Shown in pieces: positions 1,736 to 8,226 of a DNA stretch of 64,000 bases. The first letter of the stretch is position 1; every line of letters starts with the position of its first letter. The DNA is taken from contig BJHH01000001.1 in the NCBI GenBank assembly GCA_014192065.1, positions 434,001 to 498,000 on the forward strand. The letters are read 5' to 3'. The DNA is from Gemmatimonadota bacterium. Its GTDB lineage: Bacteria > Gemmatimonadota > Gemmatimonadetes > Gemmatimonadales > Gemmatimonadaceae. The position numbers were made by a program, and so were the translations under genes. Under the pieces are notes generated by a model that was given only the letters and a program-made list of their open reading frames with translations, was not told the DNA's origin and made no database searches.

Positions 1736-3559
1736 CTAGTACCCGACAGCCGTCGTCCCGGTCGACCGTGGTTCGCCGACTCCATGCCATCCACCGCGGA
1801 CACGCAGAATTGAGTTCGCCGTCGCGAGGCTGGTCCGTGTGCCGACCGTGTGACCCATGGCCTTGAGCGAATCCACGACGGCGGCTGAGAGTCCCCGCTG
1901 CTCATAGTCCAGCTGGTCGGGCAGCGCCTGATGGTGGATGCGCGGCGCCTTCATGGCATCGGCAAGCGTCATCCCATGTTCCACCACGTTGAGGATGATC
2001 TCCATTGTCGCTGTGATGATCGTCGGGCCGCCTGCGGCGCCCGTCACCATCATCAGGTTGCCGTTCGGGTCGAGCACGATCGTCGGCGACATCGCCGACA
2101 GCATCCGCTTGCCCGGCTGGATCGCGTTCACTTCGCCCTGTACGAGGCCGAACATGTTGGGTTGCCCCGGCGCCGCAGCGAAGTCGTCCATCTCGTTGTT
2201 CATGAAGAAGCCGCCGCCGCGCACCCAGACGCCGGATCCGTACCCACCGTTCAGTGTCGTCGTTGTGGCGACGGCGTTACCGGTCGCATCCACCACGGAA
2301 TAGTGCGTCGTGTGCTCCGGCTCTGTGCCCGCCTTGAACGCGGGCGTTTTCGACGCCTTCGACTTGTCGATCTGTGCGGCCAGCGTCGTGGCGTATGCCT
2401 TGCTCGTGAGTTGCTCCACCGGAACTTTCACGAACGCTGGGTCGCCGAGTTTCGCATTGCGGTCCGTGAACGAACGGCGCAGCGCCTCACCGACCAGATG
2501 CGCGTAGCCCGCGCTTCCGGCCGGCGGCAGCGGCGCAAAGGTCTCGAGGATGTTCAGCGTTTCGAGCATCGTGATGCCGCCCGACGAAGCTGGCGGCATC
2601 GTGATGAGCGTGTGCCCGCGGTACGATCCGGTGATCGGCGTGCGCCAGATGGGCTTGTAGGCCTTGAGATCCGCCTTGGTGATGATGCCGCCACCACGCT
2701 GCATTTCGGCCACGAGCGAATCGGCGATGCTCCCTTCGTAGAACGCCTTCGGCCCCTGCGCTGCGATCAGCGAGAGCGTGCGTGCGAGGTCGGGCTGCTT
2801 GAACACGGTGCCGCCCTTGAGTGATTCGCCGCCGGGGCAGAAGAGGTCCTTGCCGCCGAACTGCGCGATGAGGCGACTGCACGGCGCCGCGGCGCGGGCG
2901 GTGTCGCGGTCGATCAGGTAGCCCTCGCTTGCGAGCCGAATCGCCGGCGCCATCACCTTGGCCAGCGGCATCGTGCCGTACTTGGCGAGCGCTTCGGCCA
3001 TGCCGGCCACCGAGCCCGGCACGCCCGACGCGAGATACCCCACCGTGCTCTTGTTCGTAAGCTTGCCGTCGGCGTCGAGGTACATGTTGCGCGTCGCAGC
3101 GGCCGGCGCGGTTTCGCGGTAATCGAGCGTCGCGATGCGGCCGTCCGCCATCCGGATCGTCATGAACCCGCCGCCGCCGATGTTGCCGTTGCTCGACGAC
3201 GTCACGGCGAGCGCGAAGCCGGTCGCGACGGCGGCGTCCACGGCATTGCCGCCGGCCTTCATGATTTCGACTCCCGCCTCGCTCGCATGTTTTTGCACGC
3301 TCACCACCATCGCGTGCTCGGCGAATGTGGCCTCCGTACCAGCCTCAAAGCGCCAGCCAGCGGGGAATGCCGCCTTGGCAGCGGCAACAGCACGCACGGG
3401 GTCGACCGGGCGCACGGCCGCGGCGTCGGGGCGGATGCCCGGGGCGGCGGCAGGAGCTGGCGCGCCGCCGGGCTGCGGGCCGCGCGAGCAGGCGGCGAAG
3501 AGCGATGCGGTGGCGAGAGCCGACAGGGTGTGGCGCGACATCGAATAGCGGACGGGCAC
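1736..3559 (-). CDS. ggt: Gamma-glutamyltransferase, predicted lipoprotein
   Basis: Hydrolyses or transfers the gamma-glutamyl group of glutathione and related peptides in the periplasm; family precursors self-cleave at a Thr to form the N-terminal nucleophile. Seen: the maturation/nucleophile motif TTHYSVVDATGNAV, followed by GSGVWVRGGGFFMNNEM and GKRMLSAMSPTIV, all diagnostic. The N-terminus carries a lipobox (SLFAAC), suggesting lipid anchoring. The GTG start at 3559 is chosen because a GGAGG ribosome-binding site sits 6 nt upstream; an internal ATG at 3541 is the alternative. The product is about 607 residues, slightly long for the family because of a Pro/Ala linker after the lipobox. Divergent from murQ with 80 bp between. 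Confidence 0.93.
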   Translation of the reverse strand: MPVRYSMSRHTLSALATASLFAACSRGPQPGGAPAPAAAPGIRPDAAAVRPVDPVRAVAAAKAAFPAGWRFEAGTEATFAEHAMVVSVQKHASEAGVEIMKAGGNAVDAAVATGFALAVTSSSNGNIGGGGFMTIRMADGRIATLDYRETAPAAATRNMYLDADGKLTNKSTVGYLASGVPGSVAGMAEALAKYGTMPLAKVMAPAIRLASEGYLIDRDTARAAAPCSRLIAQFGGKDLFCPGGESLKGGTVFKQPDLARTLSLIAAQGPKAFYEGSIADSLVAEMQRGGGIITKADLKAYKPIWRTPITGSYRGHTLITMPPASSGGITMLETLNILETFAPLPPAGSAGYAHLVGEALRRSFTDRNAKLGDPAFVKVPVEQLTSKAYATTLAAQIDKSKASKTPAFKAGTEPEHTTHYSVVDATGNAVATTTTLNGGYGSGVWVRGGGFFMNNEMDDFAAAPGQPNMFGLVQGEVNAIQPGKRMLSAMSPTIVLDPNGNLMMVTGAAGGPTIITATMEIILNVVEHGMTLADAMKAPRIHHQALPDQLDYEQRGLSAAVVDSLKAMGHTVGTRTSLATANSILRVRGGWHGVGEPRSTGTTAVGY

Positions 3560-3639: not shown

Positions 3640-4548
3640 GTGGACCCACGCGTCACGGAACAGCGGAACCCGCGAACAGCGGAGATCGATCTCGCATCCT
3701 CACTCGAGATCGTGGACCTCATTGGCGCCGAGGATCGTCTGGTCGCCGACGCGGTGGCCACGCAGCGCAAAAAAATCGCGCAGGCCATTGAATGGGCCGA
3801 AGCCACCTTTCGTGCGGGCGGACGCCTTTTCTATGTGGGCGCCGGGACCTCCGGCCGGCTCGGAGTCCTCGACGCCAGCGAGATTCCCCCAACGTTCGGC
3901 GCCGATCCGGCCATGGTGCAGGGCATCATCGCCGGTGGTCACGCCGCACTGACGCGGTCGCAGGAGGGCGCTGAAGACAGGCCAGAAGGCGCCCGCGCCG
4001 ACGTGGACGCGGCCGGCGTAACGCGGGGCGACTTCCTGGTCGGCATCGCCGCGAGCGGCACCACGCCCTATGTGCGCGTCGCGCTCGAGCGGGCGAGAGA
4101 ACTCGGCGCACGCACCGCCATCCTCGCCTGTTCGCCCCCGCCTCGCGAAATGCTCGCCGCGGCCGACCTCGCGATCGTCGTGGTGACTGGCCCTGAAGTG
4201 GTGACCGGCTCCACGCGCATGAAAGCGGGTACCGCCACCAAGCTTGTGCTCAACACGATCACGACGGGCGCGATGATTCGCCTGGGCAAGACCTACGGCA
4301 ATCTGATGGTGGACGTGCAGGCCACGAACGCCAAGCTCAAGGACCGCAGCGAACGCATCGTCGTTGAGGTGTGCGGATGCTCGCGCGAGGATGCCCGCGC
4401 ACAGTTGGCGGGCGCCGACGGATCGGTCAAGCTCGCGATCGTGATGCAGAAACTGGCGATCGACAAGTCCGCTGCTCAGCATCTGCTGGCCAACGCCGCC
4501 GGCCGCATTCGCGACGTCGTGCCCGGCCCGCCGCCGCCGGTGACATGA
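3640..4548 (+). CDS. murQ: N-acetylmuramic acid 6-phosphate etherase
   Basis: Cleaves the lactyl ether of MurNAc-6-phosphate to GlcNAc-6-phosphate and D-lactate during peptidoglycan recycling (cytosol). The 302 residues match the family length. Seen: the SIS-domain sugar-phosphate loop VGAGTSGRLGVLDASE, whose final Glu corresponds to a catalytic acid, the second acidic site EGAED, and GSTRMKAGTATKLVLN. The GTG at 3640 is preferred because it gives the standard length and lies just after the promoter-sized gap to the divergent ggt. The stop overlaps the anmK start as ATGA, indicating translational coupling and a shared pathway. Confidence 0.95.
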   Translation: MDPRVTEQRNPRTAEIDLASSLEIVDLIGAEDRLVADAVATQRKKIAQAIEWAEATFRAGGRLFYVGAGTSGRLGVLDASEIPPTFGADPAMVQGIIAGGHAALTRSQEGAEDRPEGARADVDAAGVTRGDFLVGIAASGTTPYVRVALERARELGARTAILACSPPPREMLAAADLAIVVVTGPEVVTGSTRMKAGTATKLVLNTITTGAMIRLGKTYGNLMVDVQATNAKLKDRSERIVVEVCGCSREDARAQLAGADGSVKLAIVMQKLAIDKSAAQHLLANAAGRIRDVVPGPPPPVT

Positions 4549-5747
4549 CCCGCGACGTCTGGCCCGGCACCGCGCGCCCTGAGTCGGATGTGCTTGTTGG
4601 TCTGATGTCGGGAACTTCGCTCGATGGCATCAGTGCGGCCGTCGTGCGATTTCGCGAAGACGCCCACGGCGCCATCACGCCGGAGTTACTGGCGTTCGTG
4701 CAGCATGCATACGATGCGCCGTTTCGCAGCCGCCTGGCCGCCGCGATGCGCGCCGCGTCGCCAGAGGAATACGCCCGACTCGATTTCGATCTGGGTGCGC
4801 GATTGTCGGACGCCGCCGTGGCCGCGATGGCCGAAGCGGGCGTGGCTCGCTCCGACATCGCGGCTATCGCATCGCACGGCCACACGGTCTGGCACGATCC
4901 GCCGCGCGCCACCTGGCAGTTTGGCCAACCCGCCGTCATTGCCGAGCGTACCGGGTTGCCCGTCGTCGCCGATTTTCGCGTGCGCGATCTGGCCGCCGGC
5001 GGACAGGGCGCGCCACTCGTGCCCATCGCCGACGCGCTCCTGTTTGCTGCGCCAGATCATTGGCGCGCGCTACAGAACCTCGGCGGCATCGGCAATGTCA
5101 CCATCGTGCCGCCAGCGAAACAGGGCGTGGTGCTCAACGCCGTCCACGCGTTTGACACGGGCCCCGGCGTCTGTGTGATCGACGGCGTGACGCGATTGCT
5201 CAGGCCGGAGCTGCTGTTCGATCGCGACGGTCTGCTCGCTCGCTCGGGCGAGGCGATGGGCGAGGTGGTGGATACGCTGCTGACGCACCCCTTCTTCGCG
5301 GACACGCCACCCAAGAGCACGGGGCGCGAGCTGTTCACCACGGAATACATCGCAGCGTTCGTCACCACCTGTCGCGCCGCGCGGAACGGGTGCAGCGACG
5401 CCGACATCATCGCGACCGCGGTCCTGCTCACGGCGCGTAGCATCGCGTTGGCCTTCGAGCGATTTGTCGCCGAGCCCGTGACCGAACTTTTGGTCTCGGG
5501 TGGCGGTGCGCGGAATCACGCGCTCTTCGACGCAATCGCGCGCGAGCTCGGCGTCGCGCGCGCGCGGGGCGGCTACAGCAGAATGATGATTCGCCGCTTC
5601 GACGACGTCTGCTTCAACGGCGACGCCAAGGAAGCGGTCGCGTTCGCCTTCCTCGGCTGGCTGCACCTCAAGGGGCGTCCCGGCAACGTTCGCTCGGCGA
5701 CCGGCGCGCGCGGCCCGCGCGTGCTCGGTAGCTACACGCCGGCGTGA
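4545..5747 (+). CDS. anmK: Anhydro-N-acetylmuramic acid kinase
   Basis: Opens and phosphorylates 1,6-anhydro-MurNAc, released from cell-wall turnover, to MurNAc-6-phosphate, the substrate of MurQ encoded just upstream. Seen: the N-terminal ATP-binding loop VGLMSGTSLDGIS, the SHGHTVWHDPP substrate-region motif, FDTGPGVCVIDG and the late LLVSGGGARNHALFD block. The length is 400 residues, slightly above the usual 370 or so. Its ATG overlaps the murQ stop by 4 nt. The last codons lie in a short tandem-repeat array that runs on to the next start. Confidence 0.95.
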   Translation: MTRDVWPGTARPESDVLVGLMSGTSLDGISAAVVRFREDAHGAITPELLAFVQHAYDAPFRSRLAAAMRAASPEEYARLDFDLGARLSDAAVAAMAEAGVARSDIAAIASHGHTVWHDPPRATWQFGQPAVIAERTGLPVVADFRVRDLAAGGQGAPLVPIADALLFAAPDHWRALQNLGGIGNVTIVPPAKQGVVLNAVHAFDTGPGVCVIDGVTRLLRPELLFDRDGLLARSGEAMGEVVDTLLTHPFFADTPPKSTGRELFTTEYIAAFVTTCRAARNGCSDADIIATAVLLTARSIALAFERFVAEPVTELLVSGGGARNHALFDAIARELGVARARGGYSRMMIRRFDDVCFNGDAKEAVAFAFLGWLHLKGRPGNVRSATGARGPRVLGSYTPA

Positions 5748-5781
5748 GCGCCGGCGTGAGCGTCGCGTGAGCGTCGCGTGA
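5736..5781. repeat. Tandem 12/11-bp duplication across the anmK-GH3 junction
   Basis: Four head-to-tail units: ACGCCGGCGTGA, GCGCCGGCGTGA, then GCGTCGCGTGA twice. All end in GCGTGA. The first unit contains the anmK stop codon, and the last contains the GTG proposed as start of the next gene. The array looks like recent slippage duplication that set the spacing between the two coding regions. Confidence 0.75.
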
Positions 5782-7244
5782 AGGAGATTGCCAGGCTCGT
5801 CGTTCCGGCGCTGCGATGGGACGACGCGCACGGGTTTCGCTACATCGAGGGACGCATCGACGACGCGCTCGAACTTGGCGTTGGCGGGTTTCTCGTGCAG
5901 GGAGGCCCGCGCGATGAAGTCGCCGCACTCATCGCGCGACTGCATGCGGAGTCGCGCGCACCGATTCTCGTGGCGGCGCACGCCGAGCGAGGGGCGGGGC
6001 AGGCCGTCGTCGGTCTCACCGAGTTGCCCTGCTTTGGCGCCCTAGGGTCGGTGGCGATGGTCGAGGGCGACGACGCGCTTCCGTCGCTCGATGTGGAGGT
6101 CGTCCGACGGGCGGCGCGGCTGACGGCACGCGAACTGCGCAGTGTGGGGATGAACTGGGCACTCGCGCCGGTCTGCGACCTCGATCTGGCGCGCGGGTCG
6201 GCGCGTGTCGGGATTCGCGGCGGCGGCAGCGACCCGGCCGTGGTGTCGGCCATCGTCGCCGAGTGGGTAGACGCCTGCCAGTCGGAGTCGGTGGTGGCGT
6301 GCGCGATGCACTTCCCGGGGATCGGGCGGATGCTGGAGGCCGGCGCGGTGAGGGATTCCGCGTCGATCCTTCGTCTTGCCGATCTCGCGCCATTCGTCGC
6401 GGCGATTGACGGTGGCGCGGCCTGTGTGATGGTCTCGCCAGCGAGCGTGCCCGCGCTCGGCGCGCCTGAGGGCGCCATGCGGTCGGCCGCGCTGGTCGAG
6501 AACCTGCTCCGCAACGAACTGCACTTCGATGGCATCGTGGTGACGGTGCCATTCGACCGCGAGCCCGGGTTCGACGCGGCGCACGAGCCCGCGCATGCGA
6601 TCGCCGCGGTGGCGGCGGGGTGCGACCTGATTCTGGCTCCTTCCGATCTCGCGGGCGTCGTCGACGCGCTGACGAAGGCTGCCATGAGCGGCGAGCTCGT
6701 GATCAGCCGCGTACGCGAGGCCATCGGTCGTGTGGATCGGTGGGCCGGGTGGGGACGGCCGAACGCCGACGCGCCTGCGCGCGAGGCCTCGCTCGACGAC
6801 CTGATGTGGAGCCGTCAGCTCGCCGACCAGTGTGTCCGGTTCGTGAGCGGTCAGCGTCCCAGAGTGGGTGCGACGATCGAAGTGGTAAACGTGATCCATG
6901 CCGGATCGCGGGCGCGCGTCACGGCCTTCGGTGACACGCTGCGCTCGCTGCATATCGAAGTCGCCGAGTCCGCGGCACCGGCCGCAGCGGAACGCGCACC
7001 GCTCGCGGTGCAGTTTGTGCCCGACGACACCGTCGGAGAGGCGGTCACACGGGACGAACTCGATCGTGCGCGCGCTGTGATTGCACCGGCAACGAAGGCC
7101 GGTCGTGACACCGTGATTATTGCGTACTGTCACCCGCGCGCGGCGGCAGCGCTGGGGCGTGACCTCTCGATTGTCTGTGCGTGGGAGCCGACGCGGACGA
7201 TGCAGCAGGCCGCGGCGCGGGCGCTGTTCACGGCTTCGCGATAG
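5778..7244 (+). CDS. GH3 (NagZ-like) protein with degenerate active-site motifs
   Basis: Glycoside hydrolase family 3 architecture: a TIM-barrel resembling beta-N-acetylhexosaminidase NagZ, about residues 1-340, plus a roughly 150-residue C-terminal domain that NagZ lacks. Seen: the conserved NWALAPVCDLDLARG segment (126-140). The family loop normally read as KHFPGHG...DSH appears as MHFPGIG (177-183) with RDSA (192-195). The strand that normally carries the Asp nucleophile (S/T-D-D-L) reads VVTVPFD (254-260). So the acid/base His and the nucleophile are probably absent. Position directly after murQ-anmK predicts a role with anhydromuropeptides, either as a divergent enzyme or a sugar-binding pseudoenzyme. 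The GTG start is inferred. The 3' end overlaps the convergent phosphatase gene by 17 bp. Confidence 0.75.
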   Translation: MKEIARLVVPALRWDDAHGFRYIEGRIDDALELGVGGFLVQGGPRDEVAALIARLHAESRAPILVAAHAERGAGQAVVGLTELPCFGALGSVAMVEGDDALPSLDVEVVRRAARLTARELRSVGMNWALAPVCDLDLARGSARVGIRGGGSDPAVVSAIVAEWVDACQSESVVACAMHFPGIGRMLEAGAVRDSASILRLADLAPFVAAIDGGAACVMVSPASVPALGAPEGAMRSAALVENLLRNELHFDGIVVTVPFDREPGFDAAHEPAHAIAAVAAGCDLILAPSDLAGVVDALTKAAMSGELVISRVREAIGRVDRWAGWGRPNADAPAREASLDDLMWSRQLADQCVRFVSGQRPRVGATIEVVNVIHAGSRARVTAFGDTLRSLHIEVAESAAPAAAERAPLAVQFVPDDTVGEAVTRDELDRARAVIAPATKAGRDTVIIAYCHPRAAAALGRDLSIVCAWEPTRTMQQAAARALFTASR

Positions 7245-8226
7245 CGGCCCACATCAGGTAAAGCGCGAGCAGCGCGGCGAGTGAGCCCAAGATGACGCGC
7301 AGCGCGCCAGTGGGCATTCGGCGGTCGGCGGCTGAACCGGGCTGGGCCATCGGCCTGGCGGGTTCCGGGGCCTCGGCGGCTTCCGGCGCCACGAGCCCGC
7401 TGCCTTCAAATCGCGCGGCGATCACCGTGATGTTGTCCGGGCCGCCATTCTCGTTGGCCAGCGCGATCAGATTGCGGCAGGTGGCGGCGAGGTCGGGGTT
7501 TTCGTCCACGATGCGCGCGATGTCCGTGGCCCGCATCTGGCCCGACATCCCGTCGCTGCAGAGCACGAGCGTGTCGCCGCGCCGCAGCTGCTGGCTCGTG
7601 CGGTCCACGTGCACCACCGGTTCCGGTCCGAGGGCCTGCAGGATGATGTTGCGGCGCTCGTAGACTTCGGCTTCTTCGGCCGTGAGCTCGCCGGCTTCGA
7701 CGAGCTGCTGGACCAGGGACTGGTCTTTCGTGATCTGGCGGGCCACGCCGCCGCGCACGAGGTAGGCGCGACTGTCACCGATCTGGCAGAGGTAGAGCGT
7801 GTCGCCAAGCAGGCCAGCGATCGTGGCGGTCGTGCCCATGCCACGGTGTTCGCGATGCTCGGTGGCGAATGTGTGAATGCGCGAGTTGGCGGCCTCAGTG
7901 GCCAGGCAGAGCGCACGGGCGAATGTCTCGGGATCGCTCTCCGCCGAGCGGCACCAGCTGCTGTCGAGGTCGGAGAGCACGACCTCGGTGGCCATCGCGC
8001 TGGCGATCTCGCCGGCGGCAGCGCCGCCCATCCCGTCGGCCACCATGAAGAGCGCACCGCGTGTGCCCAGGGCGTGCGAACGCAGGTCGGGCTGCACCGT
8101 AGCGTGCATCGTCGTCAGGTCGGCGACGAGGAATGCATCTTCGTTGTGCTTGCGGCTTCGGCCGATGTCAGTCTGTCCGTAGACGCTGACGATGACCTCG
8201 CGGCTGGGCGGTGGTGTTCCGGTCAC
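7228..8226 (-). CDS. PP2C-family Ser/Thr protein phosphatase with C-terminal membrane anchor
   Basis: Metal-dependent phosphatase of the PrpC/Stp type, removing phosphate from Ser/Thr on kinase targets. Seen: the metal-binding and catalytic motif series TDIGRSRKHNEDAF, VADGMGG, GMGTTATI, IGDSRAYLV, LCSDGMSG and GGPDNITVI in canonical order over about 250 residues. After a Pro/Ala linker comes a single hydrophobic segment (about residues 308-329), so the catalytic domain should face the cytosol while tethered to the inner membrane. No Hanks-type kinase gene is visible nearby, although they are often paired. Convergent with the GH3 gene and divergent from the amidase. Confidence 0.92.
   Translation of the reverse strand: MTGTPPPSREVIVSVYGQTDIGRSRKHNEDAFLVADLTTMHATVQPDLRSHALGTRGALFMVADGMGGAAAGEIASAMATEVVLSDLDSSWCRSAESDPETFARALCLATEAANSRIHTFATEHREHRGMGTTATIAGLLGDTLYLCQIGDSRAYLVRGGVARQITKDQSLVQQLVEAGELTAEEAEVYERRNIILQALGPEPVVHVDRTSQQLRRGDTLVLCSDGMSGQMRATDIARIVDENPDLAATCRNLIALANENGGPDNITVIAARFEGSGLVAPEAAEAPEPARPMAQPGSAADRRMPTGALRVILGSLAALLALYLMWAAIAKP

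Follow-up and report, generated by a model that had tools for sequence, protein, structure and literature searches.

The window, a stretch of 64,000 nucleotides from a Gemmatimonadota bacterium, contains a run of three genes on the forward strand, murQ, anmK and a glycoside hydrolase family 3 gene that we refer to as gh3, facing a phosphatase gene on the reverse strand:

3649 to 4548, forward strand: murQ, MurNAc-6-phosphate etherase (NCBIfam PRK05441, 1.8e-116; TIGR00274, 2.5e-110)
4545 to 5747, forward strand: anmK, anhydro-MurNAc kinase (Pfam AnmK, 2.3e-89)
5778 to 7244, forward strand: gh3, a GH3/NagZ-descended putative pseudoenzyme of 488 amino acids with a GTG start (Pfam PF00933, 2e-36)
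6792 to 7241, forward strand: alpha/beta C-terminal domain of the gh3 protein, residues 339-488 (AlphaFold and structure match; as in two-domain NagZ)
7228 to 8226, reverse strand: PP2C-type phosphatase (NCBIfam Stp1, 5.4e-68), convergent with gh3

The true start of murQ lies inside a longer open reading frame that begins at 3325; homology sets in near 3649. The murQ stop and the anmK start share an ATGA overlap and only 30 bases separate the anmK stop from the gh3 start, an arrangement that suggests a single operon. Besides the window, 26 of 27 named Gemmatimonadetes loci have the same order, which places the genome among bacteria of the Gemmatimonadaceae type; the contig of the 27th begins at gh3. 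We note that relatives carry a gene for an FHA and trypsin-like protease protein between gh3 and the PP2C gene. In the window it is absent from this place (7228-7244), and gh3 and the phosphatase gene therefore overlap by 17 bases. In one relative, G008, the FHA part alone is left of it (L050:9513-9848).

An earlier note on this DNA had described the 5778-7244 frame as a GH3/NagZ homologue following murQ and anmK, and we confirmed both the family and the gene order. The frame scores 126 bits against PF00933 (Glyco_hydro_3; cut-off 27), which places it in the GH3 family, and this N-terminal domain is the sole Pfam match in the 488 residues. Against the NCBIfam NagZ-type model it reaches 87 bits, below that model's own cut-off of 207. 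AlphaFold predicts the fold confidently (pLDDT 91.2, pTM 0.91; 94.2 for an intact orthologue). The best structural match of the predicted fold is 3sql (Z 45.7, 3.0 A, 469 residues), and both this match and that to B. subtilis NagZ (Z 44) extend over both domains. The C-terminal domain had been taken for an unusual addition to the barrel; the structure match led us to reject that idea, as the domain is the standard second domain of two-domain GH3 NagZ. Within it, the conserved residues D373 and R381 are lost.

Active NagZ has an Asp nucleophile, and its acid/base is an Asp-His dyad carried on a flexible barrel loop, the hallmark of NagZ (PMC5104943). In GH3 enzymes the Asp nucleophile forms a covalent intermediate, and the -1 subsite holds an Asp, an Arg and a Lys-His pair (PMC4772129). 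We assigned the corresponding residues by aligning the window protein with 3sql and with intact orthologues:

5979 to 5981, forward strand: residue 68, the -1 subsite Asp, replaced by His (orthologue alignment)
6306 to 6326, forward strand: residues 177-183, MHFPGIG where intact copies have KHFPGHG; K177 replaced by Met and His182 of PGHG by Ile
6333 to 6341, forward strand: near residues 186-188, the point where the loop bearing the D-S-H dyad has been deleted (alignment with 3sql and orthologues)
6354 to 6362, forward strand: residues 193-195, DSA, which align with a different, downstream segment and not with the dyad
6543 to 6557, forward strand: residues 256-260, TVPFD; nucleophile Asp257 replaced by Val (orthologue alignment)

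The alignment with NagZ structures that the earlier note had proposed thus matches both domains, with the nucleophile and the dyad missing. Two of its motif readings, MHFPGIG for KHFPGHG and TVPFD for the nucleophile strand, were borne out. The third, in which DSA was an altered D-S-H dyad, was rejected, because the alignment puts the deleted loop elsewhere. Its general statement, that all the usual catalytic positions are replaced, is correct for K177, His182, Asp257 and the dyad, and applies also to Asp68, but R147 and H178 of the -1 subsite are retained. The window protein consequently has no strand-7 Asp nucleophile, no Asp-His dyad loop and an incomplete -1 subsite.

Orthologues of gh3 were found across the family and the order. 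All 32 intact copies have Asp at position 68, Lys at 177, His at 182 and Asp at 257, and each of these four residues is replaced in five species (G000, G008, G004, G003 and G001) belonging to the genus from which the window comes. These five are monophyletic and nested within the genus (bootstrap/SH-aLRT 100/100), and they share the new residues M177, I182 and G228. Among 288 genomes, no further member of the degenerate clade was found elsewhere in the order, profile scores falling from 747 to 467 bits. A few orthologues from other genera have lost part of the catalytic residues, namely those at L018, L069 (the same gene as L021) and L030 (G033, G025 and G035); the nucleophile Asp is missing in G033 and G025 and kept in G035.

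Of the positions that intact copies hold invariant, the degenerate clade has 18-30 of 80 broken in the gh3 protein; for MurQ the count is 0-2 of 107, for AnmK 0-2 of 95 and for the neighbouring PP2C phosphatase at most 6 of 109. Judged from these counts, the residue loss is specific to the gh3 gene within its locus, and the pattern in the window is not a matter of chance, being common to five species whose MurQ and AnmK are almost unbroken. We infer that the operon gh3 protein very probably does not carry out NagZ-type hydrolysis. The opposite reading, a hexosaminidase of the NagZ type that is still active and takes its dyad from another loop, would accord with the retained GH3 fold and operon position. 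However, the nucleophile, Asp in every intact orthologue, is Val, Ile, Ala or Pro in the clade, which makes the covalent intermediate impossible (mechanism in PMC4772129), and we regard continued activity as exceedingly improbable.

Loss of the catalytic residues could also mean that gh3 is a vestigial gene in decay, persisting only as the end of an operon while a second, intact GH3 protein (a fusion, see below) does the work. Three observations point that way: (i) the residue at the nucleophile position differs by species (V, I, V, A and P), as expected once an active site is free to drift; (ii) the stem branch of the clade is long, at 0.63 changes per column; and (iii) selection on the G001 gene is looser. 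Pairwise dN/dS over the whole gene is 0.16-0.27 among G000, G008, G004 and G003, compared to 0.09-0.30 among intact members of the genus, and 0.35-0.46 for G001, all of these values being approximate since dS is near saturation. The G001 values are as expected if constraint is weakening in that species. In contrast, the low ratios of the other four argue against decay, as do the frames, which are full-length, uninterrupted and of similar length in every one of the five species even where identity falls to 46%, the shared new residues and the confidently predicted fold. We therefore hold decay to be unlikely. Clade-wide loss of the catalytic motifs with the fold kept, and purifying selection in four species, are the marks of a pseudoenzyme, and to this extent the "muropeptide-binding pseudoenzyme" of the earlier note stands. 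Its muropeptide-binding half is disfavoured, K177 and Asp68 being gone.

The altered pocket offers some candidates for a new function. Residue 68, His in the window protein, is R, R, K and L in its four degenerate relatives, and hence basic in four of five species. Beside the position of the former nucleophile, all five have Asp260 and all four core members have Glu262-Pro263. New or relocated chemistry, with Asp260, Glu262, His178 or the basic residue 68 acting on a different and perhaps phosphorylated sugar, could build on these residues, and there are pseudoenzymes in which catalytic residues have moved to new places (PMC10211241). Against it, no conserved proton donor stands in place of the dyad, and the conservation of Asp260 is not specific, since the orthologue alignment has an acidic residue at 260 in some intact enzymes as well. 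New chemistry, which had been put forward earlier as the alternative to a pseudoenzyme, has the clade-wide Asp260 in its favour but no strong support, and we consider it decidedly improbable.

Conservation of the catalytic-face loops in the degenerate clade is 0.65, versus 0.62 for the rest of the barrel, and the same difference is seen in active enzymes. This would agree with a function kept by that face, but does not prove one. The comparison bears on a further possibility, that the protein acts purely by scaffolding or stabilising MurQ or AnmK and makes no use of its pocket. Such a scaffold would be in keeping with the unvarying tandem arrangement of the three genes; the catalytic-face loops, no less conserved than the remainder, speak against it in a test that is blind to the difference between a partner surface and a pocket. 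We consider a pure scaffold improbable.

A conventional nagZ elsewhere in the genome, which the earlier note had suggested looking for, does exist in the form of a NagZ-beta-lactamase fusion. This 1028-amino-acid protein (L033:1079-4165) is the one other GH3 protein in the genome and has all the catalytic motifs. Its N-terminus, read by eye, is lipoprotein-like, and it looks secreted. Every clade member, and also G010, a sixth, incomplete genome outside the five-species gh3 set, has a fusion in which KHFPGHGDTxTDSH is preserved; a motif search matched the TDA-type nucleophile strand in the fusions of G000, G003 and G010.

Divergent from the fusion gene in the window's genome (contig C4) is a putatively secreted NamZ paralogue (L033:3944-5245, forward strand); another contig carries a complete NamZ. 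The paralogue scores 67-98 bits in G000, G008, G004, G010 and G001, compared to 195-230 in active genus-mates with the same layout, and none was found at the fusion locus of G003. The degenerate copies have lost SPEHG, the PSPN segment and the GRGT motif, which we take to be the catalytic motifs of NamZ. Their omega is 0.25-0.53, versus 0.05-0.26 in active copies, and decay is therefore a stronger possibility here than for gh3. The operon NagZ and this paralogue might both have become non-catalytic and been retained in the clade as a split pair, one protein inside and the other outside the membrane, serving to sense cell-wall fragments or in a regulatory role tied to them. We considered a strict coupling between NagZ death and NamZ2 death and rejected it as not general across the family: in G033, G025 and G035 the NagZ copy is damaged and the NamZ genes still score well. 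G029 has a degenerate NamZ2 (L104) and an intact operon NagZ, apparently a separate loss. Since the two losses occur separately elsewhere in the family, functional coupling is unproven. The split pair seems a doubtful proposition.

Based on these results, we favour, with moderate confidence, the view that the operon gh3 is a selected pseudoenzyme, retained for some specific task at the AnmK/MurQ step, be it in sensing, in regulation or as a scaffold. By computation, the gene is a vertical descendant of a two-domain NagZ, presumably cytosolic, that stands third in a murQ-anmK-nagZ operon throughout the family. Hydrolase activity would have been lost in the ancestor of one clade, a loss made tolerable by the secreted-looking, motif-complete NagZ-beta-lactamase fusion that remains. 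Thereafter the protein would have been kept, folded and under purifying selection, in a non-hydrolytic form, most likely sensing a ligand, or serving as scaffold or regulator, at the AnmK/MurQ step through its remodelled barrel face. Ordinary muropeptide binding is disfavoured, since K177 and Asp68, which hold the sugar in active GH3 enzymes, have been lost; with residue 68 basic in four of the five species as well, the protein is unlikely to bind an uncharged GlcNAc in the manner of NagZ. The same basic residue and the adjacency to AnmK and MurQ point, by inference, to anionic sugars as possible ligands, MurNAc-6-phosphate being one example.

Many bacteria detect damage to their cell wall through fragments that NagZ produces. 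If selection preserves a naturally inactive NagZ beside AnmK and MurQ, that protein would lend itself to testing whether sensing or regulation by recycling proteins can do without cleavage. The case is also a warning for annotation, as gene order and a strong Pfam match alone would lead pipelines to call an active hexosaminidase. A literature search that fell short of most subscription papers turned up no account of a pseudoenzyme derived from NagZ and none linking an inactive GH3 protein, or muropeptide, with a pseudoenzyme.

The window protein shares its two-domain fold with B. subtilis NagZ/YbbD (3bmx) and a Synechococcus GH3 protein (3sql/3sqm), at Z 44-45.7 and rmsd 2.8-3.0 A over 464-469 residues, and it resembles them in the barrel framework, H178 and R147. 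Unlike them, it has no nucleophile Asp, Asp-His loop, Lys of the KH pair or -1 Asp. With the cytosolic NagZ of Gram-negative bacteria it shares the murQ/anmK operon context, and it is orthologous to intact copies in its genus, but it lacks the catalytic set and has a second domain that is absent from classical single-domain NagZ. The fusion in the same genome has the same GH3 N-terminal domain, at about 31% identity; in contrast to the window protein, it keeps the catalytic motifs, carries a beta-lactamase-type domain and looks secreted. A looser parallel, in how the proteins work, is offered by the degenerate LytM activators EnvC and NlpD. These are envelope proteins of an unrelated fold with a known partner, and like the role we favour for gh3, theirs is that of non-catalytic descendants of peptidoglycan hydrolases kept as regulators.
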